A DNA stretch of 64,000 nucleotides from NCBI GenBank assembly GCA_018052735.1, contig JAGPMT010000006.1:62001-126000 (forward strand), read 5' to 3'. Source of the DNA: Phycisphaerae bacterium (lineage in GTDB: Bacteria; Planctomycetota; Phycisphaerae; Sedimentisphaerales; Anaerohalosphaeraceae). The notes beneath the pieces were generated by a model that was not told the origin of the DNA, made no database searches, and saw nothing but the letters and a program-made list of their open reading frames with translations. Of this stretch, positions 48,956 to 60,102 are shown piece after piece. How positions within the stretch are numbered: the stretch's first letter is position 1; the number at the start of each line of letters is the position of its first letter. The position numbers and the translations under genes were made by a program.

Positions 48956-49822
48956 TTAGTTTTCTTTCGGCACTTTCGACTGACCATTGAGAACCTTAAG
49001 TGTTTCCCGATTAACAGCGCTTCTCTTTGAATCGCGCCACCATCCCCATTTGTTAAAATATTTGACAGCCGAAACAAGGTGATTCCAAAGTAGCCGGAGA
49101 TCCTTATAAGAACCTTTGCGATAACGATGCATTACCGTTGCATAAGGCCAATAAACCGTTCTGTATTTGCATCCGATACGCCGGACCAGGTCTACATCTT
49201 CAAAATACAGAAAAAAACGTTCATCAAAAAGCCCCACGTTCCGCAGAACATCCGTCCGCAAAAACAGAAAGCAGCCGGACAGATTAGGACAGTCAAACGG
49301 AGCCCCATAATCGGCATCTTCCAGCTGATAGTAATGATTGTACTCAGCTGCCAGCAGAGGCAGAAAACGCCGTTTGAACAGATGCCCCGGTGTCGGCAGC
49401 AGCTTGCACAATCTCTGGGGCGTACCATCAGGAAAAACAAATCTCGGGGACAGCAGACCAATCGTGCTGTCCGTATTCATCGCTTCGACAAGCGTCTCAA
49501 TCGTCCCCCGCTCAAAAGAGACATCGGGATTCATCACCAGACAGAAACGGCTTGTACCTTCTTCCAATATTATCTTTAACACCCGGTTATGTCCGCCTCC
49601 ATAGCCGCTGTTTTCACTGGGCATATATTCCAGATGCCCCCAAGGAGGAAACCTTCGGCCCAATCCGCCGACTACGGCCTCAACAGAAGCACTGCGCGAG
49701 TTGTCAACCACCCAGCAGGTAAAAGGAAAGGTAATATGCGATACACTTTCAAGACAATCAGAAAGCACCTGCGGTTCGGTATGATAAGCGACAATGGAAA
49801 TCCCGATGTGGTTTGTATTCAT
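48956..49822 (-). CDS. GT2 glycosyltransferase (rhamnosyltransferase-like)
   Basis: 288 residues, GT-A fold of family 2: 'ISIVAYHTEPQVLSDCLESV', 'VVDNSRS', 'SENSGYGGGHNRVLKIIL', metal-binding 'VMNPDVSFERGTIETLV', and 'NLSGCFLFLRTDVLRNVGLFDERFFLYFEDVDLVRRI', the acceptor region typical of WbbL-like enzymes. It should add a sugar, perhaps rhamnose, to a lipid-linked glycan. It begins four bases after the ABC transporter stop, so the two are in one operon. Confidence 0.9.
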   Translation of the reverse strand: MNTNHIGISIVAYHTEPQVLSDCLESVSHITFPFTCWVVDNSRSASVEAVVGGLGRRFPPWGHLEYMPSENSGYGGGHNRVLKIILEEGTSRFCLVMNPDVSFERGTIETLVEAMNTDSTIGLLSPRFVFPDGTPQRLCKLLPTPGHLFKRRFLPLLAAEYNHYYQLEDADYGAPFDCPNLSGCFLFLRTDVLRNVGLFDERFFLYFEDVDLVRRIGCKYRTVYWPYATVMHRYRKGSYKDLRLLWNHLVSAVKYFNKWGWWRDSKRSAVNRETLKVLNGQSKVPKEN

Positions 49823-49826
49823 TTGG

Positions 49827-51647
49827 TTAAAGTGTTGACATTTCTACCATTTGGCGAAACTTTTCATATTTTTCCGACAGGCTTTCAAATGTGCCTGTAT
49901 CCACCAGCCGATGCTTGTCAAAATAGAGAATCCGGTCGCAGCTTTTTAATGTCGATAAACGATGCGCAATCGCTATGATAGTCTGCCGGCCTTTAAGAGA
50001 ACTGATAGAACGGGCAATTTCGCTTTCTGTCGGCACATCCAGAGACGATGTGGCTTCATCCAGCACCAGCACATCGGCCTGATAATACAGGGCCCGGGCA
50101 ATCCCAATACGCTGTTTCTCGCCGCCGGACAGTTTGCGGCCATTTTCGCCCAGCGTGGTTTCAAGCTTATTGCCGAGTCCCATCACATAATCATATAAAT
50201 TGGCCATTTTAAGAACCTTTTCCACTGCCTCTACGTCAATTTGATCATTGGGAAGGCCGAATGCCACATTCCGAATCACCGTGTCATTGGCAATATAAAC
50301 CTGCTGCGGAACATACCCCAACCGCCGCTGCCAGCGGCGAACCGTATCCGGGGCCAGAACAGCCGAATCTATCCATACCCGCCCTTCCTCCGGCTCCAAA
50401 AGCCCCAGCAGGATATCCACAAAGGTTGTTTTCCCCGCTCCGGATTCCCCGACAATGCCGACATATTCTCCCTTCTTTATCACCACCGAAACATTACAGA
50501 GGGCTGGCCGCTTGGCCCCGGGGTAGGTATAAGAAACATTTTCAAATCGGATTTCTTTTTGAAAATCCAGCGGTGCAGGGTCCTGTCCGGCCGAATTCCC
50601 CCCTGCGGCCTGAAGATAGTCCCGCCACAAAGGACTCTGCACTTCTTCCAGAAGCACTTCGACGGCATGCTGCGAATGGTTAATCTGCTGAAGTGCTTTT
50701 AGAATCCGATTGACAATCGAGGACGTACGAAATGCGATGGCCGCCAAGATGCCCAGAGAAGCCACCATCGCCGGATTGTCCCCGAGAGTCGAATGAATCA
50801 CGCCGATACACATTACCACGACGCACAGGATAGCGGTAATCTCGGTAAGGTGATGGGGGAACTGATGATAAAACTGCGTCCACATATCATTATCCATTGT
50901 GGCGCGGTTGATGCCGTCAAAGCTGTCCAGAAAAAACTGTTCCCTCCCAAGAACTTTGGTCTCCTTGATAGCGTGAAGTCCCTGAAAGATATTTTTATAC
51001 TGCTCGGACATTAAGGCACTCTTTTCCGCTCCCAGCGATTTGAATTTCCGCTTGAGAAAATAATACTGGCACAAGGATGCAGCCGTTAAGATGCCGGCGG
51101 TGATAACTGCAAAAAGAAAAAAACGGGTTATCAGCACCGACAGAATAATCAGGCCGGCAATGATATTGGAAATAAGCAGAAATCCCTGCAGGACAAAGTT
51201 GTTTAAGGCATGAACTGCAATGTGATTCACATTGCGTGTAATTTTTTCCGTAGTTTTCAGCAGATGCAGCTTGTAGGGTGCCAGCAGATAAAAACGCATC
51301 AGAGCAGTGCTGATTTCAATCTTCCAGCGGCGAAGGATTTTGTTCTGCCAAAAATAATAAAACAGAAGATAGATATTTTTAGCCACAAACAAAAAAACGA
51401 TAAGCCCCCCCAGAAAGCAGGCCTGCTGCAGCGGGGACTGGACGCCAAACAGCCGCATCAGCTCCATCAGCCACCGGTGATGACGCACCGACTCGGGACG
51501 TACCAGAATCCGTATAAACGGCAGCAGCAGCATCAATCCCGCAATTTCCAGCAGCCCCGCGGCAGCAGCCCCGACAATAACCAGAGGAATATACCGCTTA
51601 TATCCCTTGCCGAAATATTTAAAGAATTCAATATAGTATTTAATCAT
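49827..51647 (-). CDS. ABC exporter, fused permease and ATPase
   Basis: 606 residues. The transmembrane domain of about six helices (20-320) opens with 'YIPLVIVGAAAAGLLEIAGLMLLLPFI', as in MsbA/PglK-like half transporters. The nucleotide-binding domain has Walker A GESGAGKTT, Q loop 'YVPQQVYIANDTVIRNV', signature LSGGEKQRIGIARAL, Walker B VLVLDEATSSLD and a switch His in 'IAIAHRLST'. It works as a homodimer. Position between a sulfotransferase-like gene and a glycosyltransferase points to flipping of a lipid-linked glycan, as PglK does. Confidence 0.92.
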   Translation of the reverse strand: MIKYYIEFFKYFGKGYKRYIPLVIVGAAAAGLLEIAGLMLLLPFIRILVRPESVRHHRWLMELMRLFGVQSPLQQACFLGGLIVFLFVAKNIYLLFYYFWQNKILRRWKIEISTALMRFYLLAPYKLHLLKTTEKITRNVNHIAVHALNNFVLQGFLLISNIIAGLIILSVLITRFFLFAVITAGILTAASLCQYYFLKRKFKSLGAEKSALMSEQYKNIFQGLHAIKETKVLGREQFFLDSFDGINRATMDNDMWTQFYHQFPHHLTEITAILCVVVMCIGVIHSTLGDNPAMVASLGILAAIAFRTSSIVNRILKALQQINHSQHAVEVLLEEVQSPLWRDYLQAAGGNSAGQDPAPLDFQKEIRFENVSYTYPGAKRPALCNVSVVIKKGEYVGIVGESGAGKTTFVDILLGLLEPEEGRVWIDSAVLAPDTVRRWQRRLGYVPQQVYIANDTVIRNVAFGLPNDQIDVEAVEKVLKMANLYDYVMGLGNKLETTLGENGRKLSGGEKQRIGIARALYYQADVLVLDEATSSLDVPTESEIARSISSLKGRQTIIAIAHRLSTLKSCDRILYFDKHRLVDTGTFESLSEKYEKFRQMVEMSTL

Positions 51648-51674: not shown

Positions 51675-54260
51675 CTATTTAACAGACGACTGCATCTTGT
51701 GTTCCATCCGCCTCACAATCCGCAGTGCCGGCCGCTGCAGAAAGGAAGGCATACGGCGGTAAATCCGGACAGCAATCATACCGGCTCTTCTGACCTGCTG
51801 CATATCCATTTCACCATCCTCTATCGCCATTGCCTTGACGTCTTTGGAGAAGCAAACCAGATATCTGCCCAAAACGGAGCGGATGCGTTGGGATTCGATG
51901 CCCGGCAGCAGCCGCAGTGCTGCCTGCCGGGCATTTTCTTCTCTGGCGGAGAATGCTTTCAGCAGACCTTGAATTATAGTCTCCAGCGCAGCAGGATAAT
52001 GTTCCTCGAGATAGGCATTGATTTGCTTGGCATCTTCTTCCAGCAATTCCTCATAGGGCTGCCAGTCTTCATTGGGATCCGGTAGAGGATCGTAAAACAG
52101 CTGGCCGTCCGGCCGCCCGAGATAGTCGCGGGCAATCGCAGCACTTTCCTCCGCATACCGCGCAAGAAGCTCCAACCGCTGGGCCGGCGAAAATACCGAA
52201 TAATCCTTCCGCCCCTGCTGTATCATATAGTCCGATACCGCGCGAAGAGGATTCACCGTGCTTCGCTTTTCAGACCGGGAAAGGGGGAGCAAATTAACCA
52301 GACGTTTATATTCAACAACAACCCGATGAAGACGCGTATTGACTTCTTTCTCAGGAAGAACAAATTCACCCGTCAGTTCCAGTCCCAGAATATGATGCAG
52401 GAAATCCGCCGCCACATCGCCGCGATAGAGCTGGCCCCTTTCATAGGGTCTGACACAGAGATGTTCTTTTCCGAAGACATCGGCCCACCTGTCAAGACAG
52501 CATTTGGCCGGCAGATTTGTCAGGAATTGCGGCCGGTTGGTTATTTCTCCCCCTTTAATTCTTTGATTATACCACAAGTCTTCCAGCCCGTCACGTCTGC
52601 GCCAATAGACGACAATCTGAACATCATAATCCCTCAGAAGCGATTTTAATTGGGAAATCTGCCGACCAGAAAATCCTAAAAAATGTTCTGAACTCAATAT
52701 ACCCGAATTGGATGAAATCTGCCGCCGCAGCTGCTCCCATTCCCGCCTTGGATGCTGTAAATCGTCTGGCCAATCTGGCTTTTTTACTTTCTGCGCCGTC
52801 ATAATAGACCAGACGAGGCGATGGTGGGCAGCCAAATTTTCGGGGGATTTTGGATAAACAATCCCCATCTTCTGGAGTAATTCCCTGTTAAGGCCTAAAA
52901 AACGCTGCAGTGCAGAAGTGCCGGTTTTAACCATTCCAATATGAACATACAGCCGACTCCGGCCGGCCATGTCGGCACCTGTCTTCTTACGGACTGTCAA
53001 ACGGCTGGCAGCAGCAGCCGTTGCAACCGCACATTTTATAACATTAGAAGGCAATCGGTTGTAAAGCGGCCGAAAATACTGGAGAACCTCCCACATGCGG
53101 GATGCGTAGAGGTCATCAAAAGCAGCTGTTTGCTGACTTGCTGTTTGAATCGGCGGCATCAACACGGCCGATACAGCATCTGCTTTGAAATATTCTGACG
53201 CAATCCCCGGCGACAGCCGGCGGGCAGCCAAACGCATTTGCGGGTCTGCAGCCGTTTGAGCCCGGACAATACCGGCGGCAATCACCCCCAGCACAGTCGG
53301 AGCAGCATCGGCTAAACAGCGATTGATTTCGGCAGCATCTTCTTCCAGCAGATCTCTGTAAGGCCGCCACAGATCTGATTCAGACGGTTCCGGTTCATAA
53401 AAAAACATTCCGTCATCCCGTCCACAGTATTCCCGGGCAAGATAATGGTAGAATTTGCGGTTTTTTTCAATCTCCCTGCGGCGCAGCGCCGGGGAAAACA
53501 CGAAATCGCTGGATTTGCCTTTCTGAAAAAACAATTCCGATATCCGCTGCAGAGGTTCAACGGCTGCATATATTTGCTGAAGGCTTAAGGGCAAATAATT
53601 GACCAGCCGTTTGTATTCGAGAACAATCCGGTGCAAACGCAGGTTTAAGTCGGCAGGGATTTTGTATTCTTCTGTTAATTCTGCATTCCAGACAGAGTTG
53701 AGAAAATCGGCATAAATACTGCCCTTATAAAACTGACCCCGCTCATATGGACGAACAATTATCGAATCGCGGCCGAATGTTCGTTCCCACAAGGCAAATT
53801 TCTCCCACCCAGCGCCGATTTTCACATCTGTTCGCTTTTCAATACCCATCTTGACCTTTTCGGCATAGAGAGATTCCTTTAAGAAATCCTGCCGTCGCAA
53901 ATATACAACAACAGTCGTATGATAGGAACGGCTCAAATCTTTCAGAAAAGCGACATCCTCCCGTGTGCAGCCCCAGAAGGTTTCCGTACTAATCAGATTT
54001 CGAGGCAGCACACACTGCCGGCTGATCTGCTGCCATTCGAAATCACACGTGCCCACATCCCTGTCGAACCACCAATGCCTAAAACCTCTTTTCAACCTTA
54101 ATGCCCACCCGATGCGATGGTGGGCTTCCAGACCCCCGGCAGCAGGGTAGGCAATCCCTTTCTGTGCGAGTAGATCCCGGTTGATGGAAAAAAACCGCTG
54201 CAGCGCCGAGGTAGCCGTTTTGGGCATTCCAATATGTAAGTACAGTTCCTTTGAATTCAT
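51675..54260 (-). CDS. Protein with two tandem sulfotransferase-like domains
   Basis: 861 residues made of two related halves. Half one starts with a 5'-PSB-like loop 'LHIGMPKTATSALQRFF' (residues about 8-24), half two with 'VHIGMVKTGTSALQRFL' (about 439-455). Both share 'VRPYERGQ-Y-G---ADFL', 'LHR-V-EYKRLVN-LPLS' and a 'W-PY--LLEEDA--IN' block. In half one the 3'-phosphate motif reads 'YLRRQDFLKESLY'; in half two it is 'YWRRRDGLEDLWY', without the Ser. PAPS-dependent sulfation of a glycan is the likely role, with half one the better candidate for activity. The start at 54260 is fixed by a promoter just upstream. The gene leads the ABC/GT2 operon. Confidence 0.82.
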   Translation of the reverse strand: MNSKELYLHIGMPKTATSALQRFFSINRDLLAQKGIAYPAAGGLEAHHRIGWALRLKRGFRHWWFDRDVGTCDFEWQQISRQCVLPRNLISTETFWGCTREDVAFLKDLSRSYHTTVVVYLRRQDFLKESLYAEKVKMGIEKRTDVKIGAGWEKFALWERTFGRDSIIVRPYERGQFYKGSIYADFLNSVWNAELTEEYKIPADLNLRLHRIVLEYKRLVNYLPLSLQQIYAAVEPLQRISELFFQKGKSSDFVFSPALRRREIEKNRKFYHYLAREYCGRDDGMFFYEPEPSESDLWRPYRDLLEEDAAEINRCLADAAPTVLGVIAAGIVRAQTAADPQMRLAARRLSPGIASEYFKADAVSAVLMPPIQTASQQTAAFDDLYASRMWEVLQYFRPLYNRLPSNVIKCAVATAAAASRLTVRKKTGADMAGRSRLYVHIGMVKTGTSALQRFLGLNRELLQKMGIVYPKSPENLAAHHRLVWSIMTAQKVKKPDWPDDLQHPRREWEQLRRQISSNSGILSSEHFLGFSGRQISQLKSLLRDYDVQIVVYWRRRDGLEDLWYNQRIKGGEITNRPQFLTNLPAKCCLDRWADVFGKEHLCVRPYERGQLYRGDVAADFLHHILGLELTGEFVLPEKEVNTRLHRVVVEYKRLVNLLPLSRSEKRSTVNPLRAVSDYMIQQGRKDYSVFSPAQRLELLARYAEESAAIARDYLGRPDGQLFYDPLPDPNEDWQPYEELLEEDAKQINAYLEEHYPAALETIIQGLLKAFSAREENARQAALRLLPGIESQRIRSVLGRYLVCFSKDVKAMAIEDGEMDMQQVRRAGMIAVRIYRRMPSFLQRPALRIVRRMEHKMQSSVK

Positions 54261-54281: not shown

Positions 54282-54310
54282 ACTATATCCCAAAAGTCTT
54301 GCCATTTCAA
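54282..54310 (-). promoter_or_regulatory. Promoter of the sulfotransferase-ABC-GT2 operon
   Basis: On the minus strand, TTGAAA (54305-54310) and TATAGT (54282-54287) are separated by 17 bases. The transcript would begin about 15 bases before the ATG at 54260. Confidence 0.75.
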
Positions 54311-54444: not shown

Positions 54445-55593
54445 ATGAATTATGATTATCTTATTGTCGGCGCTGGGTTGTCCGGTGCTGTATTCGCCCA
54501 GACGCTGGCTCAGGCAGGCCACAAAGTACTGATTCTCGAAAAACGTAGTCACATTGGCGGCAACTGCTTTGACTGTGTAGACACGGCAGGTGTGATGATT
54601 CATCGGTACGGGGCACATATTTTCCATACCGAGTTTGAGGATGTCTGGCAGTATCTGTCCGGCTTTACCCGCTGGCGTCCGTACAGCCATCGGGTTGTCT
54701 GCTTCGTGGAAGGCCGCTATATCCCCATTCCCTTCAATTATTACTCACTGCAAGAGGCCTTTGACGGCAAGGCAGCAGCCATCCAGTGTCTTTTAGAGCA
54801 GAAATATGGACGGCAAACAAAATTGTCCGTGCTCGATATCCTTCATTCGCAAGAACCCATGCTTGGCAATTTAGCTGTTTATATTTACGACAAAATCTTC
54901 AAAAATTATACCGCCAAGCAATGGGGTATTCGTGTCGACGAAATCTCGCCGGATGTCATCGCCCGGGTACCCATTTATACAGACTACGACAATCGGTATT
55001 TTACGGATACTTATCAGGCCGTTCCTGCAGACGGCTATACGGCTATGATTCAGGCACTGCTGTCCGACCCGCATATCGAGCTGAGGTTAAATACCCCCTT
55101 CGAATCGGTATGCCAGTTTACGGACGGCATCATTCGTCTGGACGGGCAGCGATTCAATGGAATACTGATTTATACCGGCCGGCCCGATGCTCTTTTCGGT
55201 TATCGTTTTGGTCTCCTGCCCTACCGCTCGGTACATTTTGAATTCGAAACATTTGCCCAAAGCTATTATCAGCATGCTCCCGATATTAACTACCCAAACG
55301 ATTACAACTATACGCGTATTGTTGAGTTTAAGTATCTCACGGGGCAGAAATGTCCAAATACAACTATTTGCCGGGAATATCCGCGTCCCTGTCAGACGCA
55401 GGCCGATGAGCCATACTACCCTATTCTCACCCCCGCATCCGTTCGGCTGTATCAGCTCTACGCCGAGCAAGCCAGACAGTACGACAATTTGATTTTGGCC
55501 GGCCGGCTGGGACGATTTCAGTACGTTGATATGGATGATGCGGTCAAAAATGCCCTCGATGCGGCAAGGACGCTTTTGCAATGCCGCGTTTAA
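54445..55593 (+). CDS. glf: UDP-galactopyranose mutase
   Basis: 382 residues, the usual Glf length. It interconverts UDP-galactopyranose and UDP-galactofuranose with reduced FAD. Visible are the dinucleotide fold 'YLIVGAGLSGAVFAQTLAQAGHKVLILEKRSHIGGNCFD', 'YGAHIFHTEFEDVWQYL', 'NYTAKQWG', 'PIYTDYDNRYFTDTYQAVPADGYTAMIQALL', 'YTGRPDALFGYRFGLLPYRSVHFEFE' and 'GRLGRFQYVDMDDAV'. AGGA precedes the ATG. It is the first gene of the plus-strand operon and supplies the donor for the GlfT2-like enzyme two genes on. Confidence 0.96.
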   Translation: MNYDYLIVGAGLSGAVFAQTLAQAGHKVLILEKRSHIGGNCFDCVDTAGVMIHRYGAHIFHTEFEDVWQYLSGFTRWRPYSHRVVCFVEGRYIPIPFNYYSLQEAFDGKAAAIQCLLEQKYGRQTKLSVLDILHSQEPMLGNLAVYIYDKIFKNYTAKQWGIRVDEISPDVIARVPIYTDYDNRYFTDTYQAVPADGYTAMIQALLSDPHIELRLNTPFESVCQFTDGIIRLDGQRFNGILIYTGRPDALFGYRFGLLPYRSVHFEFETFAQSYYQHAPDINYPNDYNYTRIVEFKYLTGQKCPNTTICREYPRPCQTQADEPYYPILTPASVRLYQLYAEQARQYDNLILAGRLGRFQYVDMDDAVKNALDAARTLLQCRV

Positions 55594-56666
55594 CAATCCT
55601 CATCCCTGTTTATAATCAGGCCGGCTATCTGCCTTTATGCCTTCAGTCTATCGGCAAACAGGAATTCACCGATTTTGAAATTATTGCCGTTGATGACGGC
55701 AGCACTGACGGGAGCCGCTCTATTCTCGATGCCTATGCCGCAGACGAAAGACGAATCAGAGTCATCGCGAAATCCAACGGCGGATACGGCAGCGCCCTGA
55801 ATGCCGGACTTGCGGCCGCAAAAGGCGATTATATCGGAATTGTAGAGCCGGATGATACCATCGAAGCCCCAATGTACCGGGTCTTAATGGCCGCCGCCGA
55901 ACAAACGCAGGCGGACATTGTAAAATGTTCCTTTCGCAGGATTTTTTCCGAAGGTCTCTGCCTCGAAGAAAAGGGCTGGTACGCCGCGGCCGGCAGAGTT
56001 TTTTGTCTCCGCCAGCACCCGGAATTGTGCCGCCTGCATCCGGCGATATGGGCTGCCGTTTACAGGCGGCAGCTTCTGGAAGACAATCATATCCGTTTTG
56101 CTGAAACCCCCGGGGCTACCTATCAGGATGTGCCGTTCTTTGCGGAAGCGTTTTCCGCCGCCCGGACTATTTTCATCGTCCCGCAGGCACTCTACAATTA
56201 CCGTCTCGAATCCGAAAACGCGTCTTCCTCTTCCAATGCCATCGATGCCAAAGTCTTTTACCGGCTGGAAAATCATCAGCGGGCGCGTCGTGTCTATCAG
56301 GCCCGCGGACTGTGGGAAATTGTCAAATATTATGAGCTGCAGCGGGAATTTATCACGCTGAATAATTTCGCGCTGCGTATCAAAGGTTCGCTGCGGCGGG
56401 CACTGTTTGAAAAAATACGCGGCTATTTTGCCGAGATTCCTGTCAGCGAGGCGGTGTCGTTTCTGCCCTCGGGATTCCGAACCTCTTTTGAGCTGATCAA
56501 AAAAGGCAGCTACAGCCGATGGATGCTGCAGTATGCTCTGCTGCCTGTTATAATCATCCGCCTTGCAGAACAGCTTGGGCTGTCAGACCGGCTCAGGCAG
56601 AAATACTACACATGGAAAGATACCGGGCCAGCCGCCTATGTTCAAGATCCAGAATATAGTTACTGA
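55581..56666 (+). CDS. GT2 glycosyltransferase
   Basis: 361 residues. The GT-A domain reads 'LTILIPVYNQAGYLPLCLQSIGKQEFTDFEIIAVDDGSTDGSRSIL', 'GYGSALNAGLAAAKGDYIGIVEPDDTIEAPMYRVL' (metal-binding D-D) and 'TYQDVPFFAEAFSAARTIFIVPQALYNYRLE', as in WcaA-like enzymes. The C-terminal 130 residues are helical. It overlaps glf by 13 bases and the next gene by 29 bases, so the three are translationally coupled. Donor and acceptor cannot be told from sequence. Confidence 0.92.
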   Translation: MPRLTILIPVYNQAGYLPLCLQSIGKQEFTDFEIIAVDDGSTDGSRSILDAYAADERRIRVIAKSNGGYGSALNAGLAAAKGDYIGIVEPDDTIEAPMYRVLMAAAEQTQADIVKCSFRRIFSEGLCLEEKGWYAAAGRVFCLRQHPELCRLHPAIWAAVYRRQLLEDNHIRFAETPGATYQDVPFFAEAFSAARTIFIVPQALYNYRLESENASSSSNAIDAKVFYRLENHQRARRVYQARGLWEIVKYYELQREFITLNNFALRIKGSLRRALFEKIRGYFAEIPVSEAVSFLPSGFRTSFELIKKGSYSRWMLQYALLPVIIIRLAEQLGLSDRLRQKYYTWKDTGPAAYVQDPEYSY

Positions 56667-58407
56667 CAATCAGATGCTTCAAAACTGCAGCCGCTTGTTT
56701 TACACGCAGGAGCATCGTCTCGGCCGCAGCATGCTGAGTTTTCAGACTTATTTCAACACACTCTGGCTTCAAGCATGGAAGGAGTACACCTGCGCCAGCC
56801 GCTTTTATCTGAATATACGATTTCGCGGCCAATGCAGCATCCGGCTGATTCAGAGTCATCTGGCAGAAGTAAAATACGATTCGGCTTCCAGCAGCCCCCT
56901 TGGCGAAATAGCGTCCGAACGCCTTTTCTTCCAACAGACCTTTTATTCGGACGGATCGGACTATCAGCAGATTGAAATCACCGGCTCTGACGCCGGCGCC
57001 CGGATGGTCTATTTTGAAATAGACCATGCGAGCGATTTTGAATACATCGACGCTTTTTACTCGGTCGATTCTGCTTTTCCGCCTGCTCGTGTTAAAACAG
57101 CGATTGTTATCTGCACATTCCGCCGGGAGCAATTTGTGCGTCGGAACCTTGAGATTTTGACAGCATATTTCCGCAAGGAGCCGGACTTGCGCGAGGTGTA
57201 TGATGTCTTTGTTGTGGACAACGGCCGGACGCTTTCGGCAGACCTTGCACAATATCCTGTTTTTCTCTGGCCCAACAAAAACACAGGCGGCACAGGCGGT
57301 TTTACCCGCGGCATCATTGAAGCACTCCGCTCCGACCGAAATTATACCCATGTGCTTCTGATGGATGATGACATTGAAATTTTTCCCGAAGCGCTGCAGC
57401 GGACGTATGCTTTGGCCGCCCTGCTCAAGCCGGATTGGCACCGGTCTTTCATTGCCGGCAGCATGCTGCGTGCGGACATGCAGCATTTCCAATGGGAAGC
57501 CCGCTCGCACATCAAAGGACTCCAGCTGGAGGCTTACGGCCGGCTTTTTTTGTCGGACTTTTCGTCGGTCGTAAAAAACGAAATCCTTGCCAGCCGGCAT
57601 ACCCCGCGGGATTATGCCGCCTGGTGGTACTGCTGCATTCCGCTGGCAGCGATACAGCCGGACAGATTGCCTCTTCCCTTCTTTGTCCGCGGGGATGATA
57701 TTGACTATTCACTCGCATGCGCCGATAAAATCATTCATCTTAACGGCATCTGCGTCTGGCACGAGCCATTTGAGAGCCGCCGAAACAATGTCGTGGATAT
57801 GTATATGACCGTGCGCAACTTTACAGCCCTCAGCATCCTTCATAAAAGCCCCCTGCCGCTTACCGTGTATCATCTGATGGCTCTTTTTGCCGGAAATATC
57901 TTCACCTACAATTATAAGGGCGCGTTTCTGGTATGCTGCGGCCTTCGCGACGCTGTGCGCAGAATTTGCAGTTTTGAAGACAACCAGACGGAGCTGCTTG
58001 ACCGTTATGCAGCTTACAATGAAATCGAAACAAACTGCGCCGGCGACCCGTCCGAGGCCTTTAAAAAGATAAAACTCCATGTGCCGGTCAAATTGCTGAT
58101 TGTCCTGACCTACGGCGGCCATCTGCTGCCGGGATTCTTTTTTAGAAAAAAAACATTTGCTTTGGCCGGCTATCGGGTTGCAATCGCAAAATGTTTTGCC
58201 AGCAGACACGTCTGTATTTATAATCCCTTCACCGGCAAATGGACAGAACGAAAAATCGACAGGCTCGCGGCTTTTGCCCTTGGCTTTCGGTTTCTTTTTC
58301 TGCTTCTTTATGTTGTCTTGTTTTACCCCGGCATACGCAGGAAGCTCCTTCAAAAAGAAGCCCAATACCGAACACTGGAATTCTGGAAACGGTATCTGGA
58401 GCTTTAA
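56638..58407 (+). CDS. Galactofuranosyltransferase-like GT2 (GlfT2-like)
   Basis: 589 residues. An N-terminal beta-sandwich-like domain (about 1-150, 'FQTYFNTLWLQAWKEYTCASRFYLNIRFRG') precedes a GT-A domain with 'VKTAIVICTFRREQFVRRNLEIL', 'VFVVDNGRTL', 'NKNTGGTGGFTRGIIEAL', the triple-Asp metal motif 'HVLLMDDDIEI', and 'AAWWYCCIPLA ... FVRGDDIDYSL ... ICVWHEPFESR'. This layout and the DDD motif match mycobacterial GlfT2, a processive galactofuran polymerase. The C-terminus ends in a hydrophobic helix (FALGFRFLFLLLYVVLFYPGI). With glf two genes upstream, a galactofuranose product is strongly suggested. The start at 56638 is preferred over 56563. Confidence 0.88.
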   Translation: MFKIQNIVTDNQMLQNCSRLFYTQEHRLGRSMLSFQTYFNTLWLQAWKEYTCASRFYLNIRFRGQCSIRLIQSHLAEVKYDSASSSPLGEIASERLFFQQTFYSDGSDYQQIEITGSDAGARMVYFEIDHASDFEYIDAFYSVDSAFPPARVKTAIVICTFRREQFVRRNLEILTAYFRKEPDLREVYDVFVVDNGRTLSADLAQYPVFLWPNKNTGGTGGFTRGIIEALRSDRNYTHVLLMDDDIEIFPEALQRTYALAALLKPDWHRSFIAGSMLRADMQHFQWEARSHIKGLQLEAYGRLFLSDFSSVVKNEILASRHTPRDYAAWWYCCIPLAAIQPDRLPLPFFVRGDDIDYSLACADKIIHLNGICVWHEPFESRRNNVVDMYMTVRNFTALSILHKSPLPLTVYHLMALFAGNIFTYNYKGAFLVCCGLRDAVRRICSFEDNQTELLDRYAAYNEIETNCAGDPSEAFKKIKLHVPVKLLIVLTYGGHLLPGFFFRKKTFALAGYRVAIAKCFASRHVCIYNPFTGKWTERKIDRLAAFALGFRFLFLLLYVVLFYPGIRRKLLQKEAQYRTLEFWKRYLEL

Positions 58408-58587: not shown

Positions 58588-60102
58588 ATGACAATGAACA
58601 GCAGACAGCTTTCAGATTATATAAAAGTCAGACAAGATTCATGGAGGGGATATATCCAGAGAGATTTTGCGGACTTGGAGCCGGGGGTTCTGGCCGGCGA
58701 AACTCCGCTGGACAGCCGCCGCAGCGCTCTGGAAAGAGTGGCCTCATCCCATACCGCAGAGGTATTTCGCTATGCTGTTCAGGCAGGCGGACGTTCCTAT
58801 ACGCTGTATCTCAAAAAATTTCCGCCCCGTTCACCAGCGGACTGGTTCAAGCACCTGTTCCGCCCCAGCCGGGCACAGCGGGCATTCCGGGCAGGATTGC
58901 TGCTGCGGCAGCACGGATTCGGCACTCCGCCGATTGCCGCCTGTCTTTGCCGAAAGAAAGGCCTGCTGATGAGCCAGTATATCCTTATCACGCAGGAAAT
59001 GAAGCAGGCCTGTCCGCTTTATCTCGCTTTGGAATCACTTTGCGGCCTGCAGGACAAACGCCGGCTGATTGCCGAACTGGGCAGAACCATCGGCCGAATG
59101 CACGCGGCAGGCATCACGCACGGCGATTTGCGGGGCGGCAATGTATTCGTTTCTCAAGAGGCCGGTCGGGCCGTCTTTTTCTTCATCGACAATGAGCGTA
59201 CGGTTCGGTATCCGATTCTTCCGGGCTGGCTGCGGATTAAAAATCTTGTGCAGCTTAATATGCTCGAAAAAAATATTACCTTTTCCGACCGGATGCGTTT
59301 TTTAAAAGCCTATGCCGGCGCAGCGGGGCTTAACAAAAGGACAATGCGGCGGCTTGCTCGGGCAGTTATTCGAAAAACGCAACGGCGTCTCAGGCATCGG
59401 GCCAAAACGCGGCTGGGCTGTGCGGACGGACCAGCTGACCACTGGAATTTTCAGCGGACCCGATGGGAAAATCGCCGGGGAACATTTCGGATGGATTTCT
59501 GCAAAGGGACATCTGCCGTCGCATTCCTGCGTGAGATCGATAATCTAACGGAACACGGCGTTCTATTAAAAAACGATACCGCCGCCCGAGTGGTTCGCTG
59601 CACGTATAACAACCGGGATATTGTCATCAAGCGGTACAATCATCAGGGCCTGTGGCACTCGCTGCGCTATACCTTCAAAGGCAGCCGGGCAAAAAAATGC
59701 TGGCGGTTCGGCCATCGGCTGACGGAGGCCGGCATTGCCTGTGCCGCTCCGCTGGCGTGTATCGAACAATATCAATGCGGACTGATATGGACATCGTATA
59801 TCGTCAACGCATTTGTCGAAGGTCCGCTGCTGTACGATGTGATGAACCGGCCGGGCTACTCGCCGCAGGAAAAGGATGCAGTGATGCAACAGGCCCGGCA
59901 GCTGCTGGAAGACCTTGGACGGCACCGGCTGACCCACGCCGATATGAAACCGGCGAATCTGATTATTCATCATGGAAAGCCGGTGCTGATTGATCTGGAT
60001 GCGATGCAGGAGCACCGGATGCGGCTGTTTTTCCAGTATCGGTATAAAAAAATGGTCCATTATTTTCACTGCCGCCTGCACGGCAAAAAGAAGCAAAACT
60101 AA
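58588..60102 (+). CDS. Protein with two tandem WaaP/KdkA-type kinase domains
   Basis: 504 residues holding two small kinase folds. Domain one (about 45-275): candidate Lys in 'YLKKFPP' (76-77), catalytic 'THGDLRGGNVFV' (178 on), and Asp201 in 'FFIDNERT' at the DFG place. Domain two (about 300-500): Lys348 in 'IVIKRYN', 'THADMKPANLII' (450 on), and 'VLIDLDAM' (469-471). Both carry the 'R-x-x-G-x-x-L...G(F/I)-x-x-x-x-P' pattern of LPS-core heptose/Kdo kinases. The protein is therefore predicted to phosphorylate two sites on a surface glycan. It ends the plus-strand operon and its stop overlaps that of the convergent GT4 gene. No strong ribosome site is seen at ATG 58588; the ATG two codons on is an alternative. 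Confidence 0.83.
   Translation: MTMNSRQLSDYIKVRQDSWRGYIQRDFADLEPGVLAGETPLDSRRSALERVASSHTAEVFRYAVQAGGRSYTLYLKKFPPRSPADWFKHLFRPSRAQRAFRAGLLLRQHGFGTPPIAACLCRKKGLLMSQYILITQEMKQACPLYLALESLCGLQDKRRLIAELGRTIGRMHAAGITHGDLRGGNVFVSQEAGRAVFFFIDNERTVRYPILPGWLRIKNLVQLNMLEKNITFSDRMRFLKAYAGAAGLNKRTMRRLARAVIRKTQRRLRHRAKTRLGCADGPADHWNFQRTRWENRRGTFRMDFCKGTSAVAFLREIDNLTEHGVLLKNDTAARVVRCTYNNRDIVIKRYNHQGLWHSLRYTFKGSRAKKCWRFGHRLTEAGIACAAPLACIEQYQCGLIWTSYIVNAFVEGPLLYDVMNRPGYSPQEKDAVMQQARQLLEDLGRHRLTHADMKPANLIIHHGKPVLIDLDAMQEHRMRLFFQYRYKKMVHYFHCRLHGKKKQN

Follow-up and report, generated by a model that had tools for sequence, protein, structure and literature searches.

A tandem glycan sulfotransferase-like protein of a Phycisphaerae bacterium with one selectively altered putative PAPS site

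The window, i.e., the whole 64,000-nucleotide stretch of a Phycisphaerae bacterium contig that was analyzed, carries on its reverse strand an ORF at 51675..54260 that encodes two sulfotransferase-like domains in a single chain. The first ATG of the frame lies at 54305 and would yield a protein of 876 amino acids, but the ATG at 54260, which has AGGG a few bases 5' of it, is the more likely start; it gives 861 amino acids, and all residue numbers in both halves are counted from it. Half 1 occupies 52986..54260 and half 2 occupies 51678..52985, both on the reverse strand. Next on the same strand come an ABC exporter gene (49827..51647; Pfam ABC_tran) and, as the third gene of the module, a GT2 glycosyltransferase gene (48956..49822; Pfam Glycos_transf_2). 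PglK structures are among the PDB matches of the ABC protein, and its best NCBIfam match is to PglK (E=4.6e-77, nearly full length), but its 259.7 bits fall below the curated equivalog cut-off of 1000, and the protein is thus named only as PglK-like. The initial annotation had assigned the double enzyme to one operon together with exporter and glycosyltransferase genes, and this arrangement not only holds in the window but recurs in a genome of the same genus (G002, below).

Divergent from the module on the forward strand is glf, encoding UDP-galactopyranose mutase (54445..55593; PF03275; TIGR00031 at 418 bits over a cut-off of 303.75). It is followed by two further cluster members, a GT2 glycosyltransferase gene (55581..56666, forward; PF00535, E=3.7e-32) and a second glycosyltransferase gene (56563..58407, forward), which matches PF00535 at the cut-off and has a weak galactofuranosyltransferase-2-type N-terminus (PF17994, E=2.1e-4, below the cut-off). 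The true start of the latter probably lies further in, as the listed TTG start overlaps the preceding gene. From these neighboring genes alone, a galactofuranose-containing acceptor glycan can be offered as a lead only. Homologues of the double enzyme also have glf nearby in Paracoccus pantotrophus, P. methylovorus, Paroceanicella, Leisingera, and a proteobacterial locus (L002), and glf is absent from the gene listings near several other homologues; the association is likewise only a lead to galactofuranose. About 4 kb from the double enzyme, an ORF at 58588-60102 has two stretches that match the Kdo/WaaP kinase family and may be another internally doubled protein.

The 861-amino acid protein is an internal duplication. 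In a protein alignment, half 1 and half 2 are 40% identical over 362 amino acids (E=1e-88), a similarity far above chance, and the repeated blocks that had first suggested two domains were found as described, in the same order in both halves. At the DNA level the halves resemble each other only in places (71% over a 94-base stretch at the P-loop), and the duplication is therefore old; most likely, one ancestral sulfotransferase gene was duplicated end to end. The tandem layout was looked for in sampled genomes of the genus, family, order, class, and phylum, and in fetched plasmid and viral loci; over this sample, two full domains in one frame were found outside the window only in G002, where the protein has 785 amino acids, and no further tandem was seen. 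The double enzyme of G002 is followed by orthologues of the ABC and GT2 proteins that are 73% and 54% identical to those of the window, whereas the double proteins themselves are only 39% identical end to end. In a domain tree, the four halves from the window and G002 formed one clade with support of 99/98, and the pairing of halves within that clade gave an AU p of about 0.5; the possession of a common module favors one duplication over two. Another genome of the genus (G004) has an ABC protein 64% identical to that of the window on a short contig, with different genes beside it, and the genes around the exporter therefore vary. The relatives in G183 are separate tandem genes, plausibly the precursor state of the fusion. 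The middle one of three such genes there (L050:5508-6754) is split into two overlapping frames, which is a frameshift or an assembly error.

Assignment of the domains to a family was not straightforward, because neither the whole protein nor either half matched any Pfam entry, and an NCBIfam scan of the separate halves and their relatives gave no sulfotransferase match for the window protein. Relatives were gathered from genomes, IMG/VR contigs, and plasmids, and a 31-domain family profile run against the PDB matched 3rnl, a sulfotransferase of solved structure, with E=4.2e-7, and structures of SULT2A8 with E of about 0.002. An 8-row profile had returned only spurious matches, to RbsD and a designed PPR protein, and the larger profile was needed. 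Six of the 31 family members match PF00685 (best 1.4e-6), and two match PF13469. Using HMMER, the Y-L-R-R-x-D-x4-S segment of the family aligns to LRNPVDRAFS of 3rnl and to IRNPRDVLVS of SULT2A8. A 2024 review (PMC11625862) lists as conserved in sulfotransferases a Lys and a Gly in the phosphosulfate loop and, within the motif RXXXDXXXS, the Ser of the 3'-phosphate helix; the Arg-to-Ser spacing of this motif is the same in the window family, but the Asp is shifted by one position. Both halves have a 5'-phosphosulfate loop of the form K-T-[AG]-T, in which the Lys is present in 18 of the 18 other alignment rows. At the 3'-phosphate site, half 1 has both Arg and Ser, and half 2 has the Arg, with Leu in place of the Ser.

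AlphaFold models of the two halves, built on alignments that excluded loci retrieved by genome search, were similar in quality (half 1, pLDDT 84.9 and pTM 0.81; half 2, pLDDT 85.5 and pTM 0.80). PDB fold matches were led by 3rnl, TPST2, and NDST1 for half 2 and by TPST1 and NDST1 for half 1, for which adenylate kinase ranked third; kinases and GTPases occurred among the weaker matches of the halves. The best matches of both models were thus sulfotransferases with a probability of 1.00, at E-values all >0.001 and TM-scores of 0.2-0.5, and these model-based matches are supportive, though not strong, evidence of a PAPS sulfotransferase identity. Structure prediction might have returned no P-loop sulfotransferase fold for either half; that outcome did not arise, and the relationship to PAPS sulfotransferases suggested by the initial annotation is supported by the match of the 31-row profile to 3rnl and, less strongly, by the top fold matches. 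In comparison with Sulfotransfer_1 (PF00685, e.g., 3rnl), the P-loop K-x-G-T and the Arg-to-Ser spacing align with the window family, some relatives match PF00685 itself, and 3rnl is the top or a near-top fold match for both halves; the window protein differs in having no Pfam match, in being doubled, and in lacking the Ser in half 2. NDST1, the heparan sulfate N-deacetylase/N-sulfotransferase found among the fold matches, also has its glycan sulfotransferase domain in a two-domain chain, but its second domain is a deacetylase and not another sulfotransferase (PMC10864358).

Half 1 contains the core residues of a PAPS site: K14 and T15 in its KTAT P-loop, S91-x-E93, R122-R123, and Ser130. Half 2 retains the P-loop (KTGT), the S-x-E, and the Arg. 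When the halves are aligned, Ser130 (codon TCT, 53871..53873, reverse strand) falls exactly opposite Leu562 (codon TTG, 52575..52577, reverse strand), so that the Ser-to-Leu change proposed from the initial reading of the sequence is precise. The Ser column is invariant in the 18 domain-alignment rows other than the window halves. The wider set comprised 55 distinct family domains in which none of the four core columns is empty, and 53 of them have K, E, R, and Ser at the core positions. Half 2 of the window is the only domain among the 55 in which K, E, and R are intact and the Ser is lost. The other exception is a degenerate domain in another genome (G517, L070:382-2622), which is fused to a GT2 domain and in which none of the four core residues remains (M, K, H, and A stand in their place); the same cluster also holds several intact relatives. 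Half 2 deviates at only one of 30 conserved columns, that of the Ser itself, whereas half 1 deviates at four of the 30, including the KTGT-to-KTAT change in its P-loop that is common to two other of the 18 rows. The idea that half 2 is a generally decaying copy was ruled out on these counts. Judged by its sequence, half 2 appears to have lost one specific residue without wide decay, and the options open for it are that it is altered but active, that it has a specific non-catalytic role, or that the Leu is a very recent mutation or a base error.

The host can make PAPS, as the synthesis genes, when sought in the genome of the window, proved to be present and adjacent: cysC, cysD, and cysN lie in a row with a gene for a CysQ/HisN-type phosphatase (L015:782-4838, G000:C6), although both scores of the phosphatase are below their cut-offs. 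The CysN of this operon has a C-terminal APS-kinase-like stretch despite the separate CysC. No CysH/PAPS reductase was found in this genome, which is 96% complete and in which PF01507 matches only CysD, and sulfation is therefore the likelier use of the PAPS. Further sulfotransferase-like genes are present in the genome, so the PAPS operon need not serve the double enzyme alone, and the products of these other genes could be the main users of PAPS. Among relatives, co-occurrence of the family and APS kinase was uninformative, as cysC occurs with or without the family. The marine Vibrio KMM 8419 has a sulfated capsule locus with sulfotransferases, PAPS genes, glycosyltransferases, and an ABC exporter (PMC11641403); the PAPS genes lie within the capsule locus there but on another contig here, and the likeness drawn is one of gene content.

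We favor, with moderate confidence, the interpretation that the double protein is a PAPS sulfotransferase of two domains whose substrate, before export, is a cell-surface glycan that possibly contains galactofuranose, with a standard site in half 1 and an altered one in half 2. The analysis establishes the duplication, the family relationship, the residue change, the gene context, and the PAPS genes; a sulfation activity, its acceptor, its timing relative to export, and a division of labor between the halves are inferred. Sulfate would be added to the cell-surface glycan, probably as a lipid-linked oligosaccharide in the cytoplasm, and the PglK-like ABC transporter would then flip or export the sulfated oligosaccharide. 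Half 1 retains each of the four core residues and is presumed to be the standard catalytic site. In half 2 the P-loop Lys, the S-x-E, and the Arg are still in place; because the Ser that would hold the 3'-phosphate of PAPS is gone, weaker PAPS binding is expected of this half, which might serve as a partner that holds the acceptor or resembles a dimer subunit, or as a second site whose kinetics are altered.

What half 2 does admits several explanations. It is a real, if tentative, possibility that half 2 is a pseudo-sulfotransferase, i.e., catalytically dead but selected as a partner in acceptor holding, in a dimer interface, or in regulation. It has of course lost an otherwise invariant cofactor residue, and the fully degenerate domain at L070 indicates that dead copies are retained in the family; however, dead copies usually lose more than a single residue, as that at L070 did, and the better conservation of half 2 would, on sequence, fit a purely structural role poorly. 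Somewhat more doubtful is that both halves are active, on two positions or two sugars of one glycan, with the Leu tolerated because other contacts hold the PAPS. The retention of P-loop, S-x-E, and Arg in half 2, with one deviation in 30 conserved columns, is consistent with this, as is the presence of all core residues in both halves of the G002 protein; yet all other domains that retain the remaining core residues have the Ser as well.

The Leu might instead be accidental. A single transition separates its codon, TTG, from the Ser codon TCG, and a recent point mutation in the strain, or an assembly error at this base, is therefore possible; the normal protein of the species would then have two complete sites. 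That half 2 is otherwise unchanged at conserved columns and that its sister genome G002 carries Ser in both halves also point this way, but the frame is intact and shows no positive sign of error, although only one genome per species was compared, and we consider this explanation unlikely. Still less probable is that the two sites on the one chain have diverged in their use of donor, half 1 being a normal PAPS site and half 2 an otherwise intact site with no need of the Ser; half 2 would then have different kinetics, take another form of the donor, or act as a PAP or acceptor sensor that sets the sulfation pattern of the exported glycan. That the domains are P-loop proteins using another nucleotide in a kinase-like manner is very improbable: some kinases and GTPases do appear in the weaker fold matches, but the profile match to solved sulfotransferases (E=4e-7) spans the 3'-phosphate motif, PF00685 is matched within the family, a PAPS-synthesis gene adjoins one homologue, and annotated sulfotransferases of other families lie near homologues in related loci.

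A literature search, largely of openly available papers, found none on tandem or two-domain sulfotransferases. The initial annotation had also raised the matter of homologues with the same two-domain layout, and the one found, in G002, is of particular value here: a tandem with an altered site and a tandem of the same genus with two complete sites together constitute a natural test of the 3'-phosphate Ser, and of whether fused sulfotransferases make patterned sulfation. Our favored interpretation is thus of a putative tandem glycan sulfotransferase whose family is poorly annotated and of whose two PAPS sites one has been selectively altered, so that the two halves of the doubled enzyme may no longer share one job.

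Bacterial glycan sulfotransferases are poorly annotated in general. No Pfam entry matches the window protein, and the plasmid members of its family are mostly listed as "hypothetical protein"; the family is nonetheless found in polysaccharide loci and, at one of them, has a gene for PAPS synthesis as its neighbor. The relatives on Rhodobacterales and cyanobacterial plasmids have the same domain and core residues and likewise lie in polysaccharide loci, but they contain one domain only and are 22-34% identical to half 2 of the window protein. On a Paracoccus saliphilus plasmid (L092:7870-10996), an unannotated family member lies directly 3' of a gene for a bifunctional ATP sulfurylase/APS kinase. 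A Qingshengfaniella alkalisoli plasmid encodes two proteins of 1268 and 1323 residues (L089:7670-11473 and L089:125-4093) in which Capsule_synth, GT2, and sulfotransferase-like domains are joined, and these fusions, together with the P. saliphilus gene pair, link the family both with PAPS and with glycans. A different fusion occurs in G655 (L064:118-2193), where a 692-residue frame combines a sulfotransferase domain with a lipid A acyltransferase domain.
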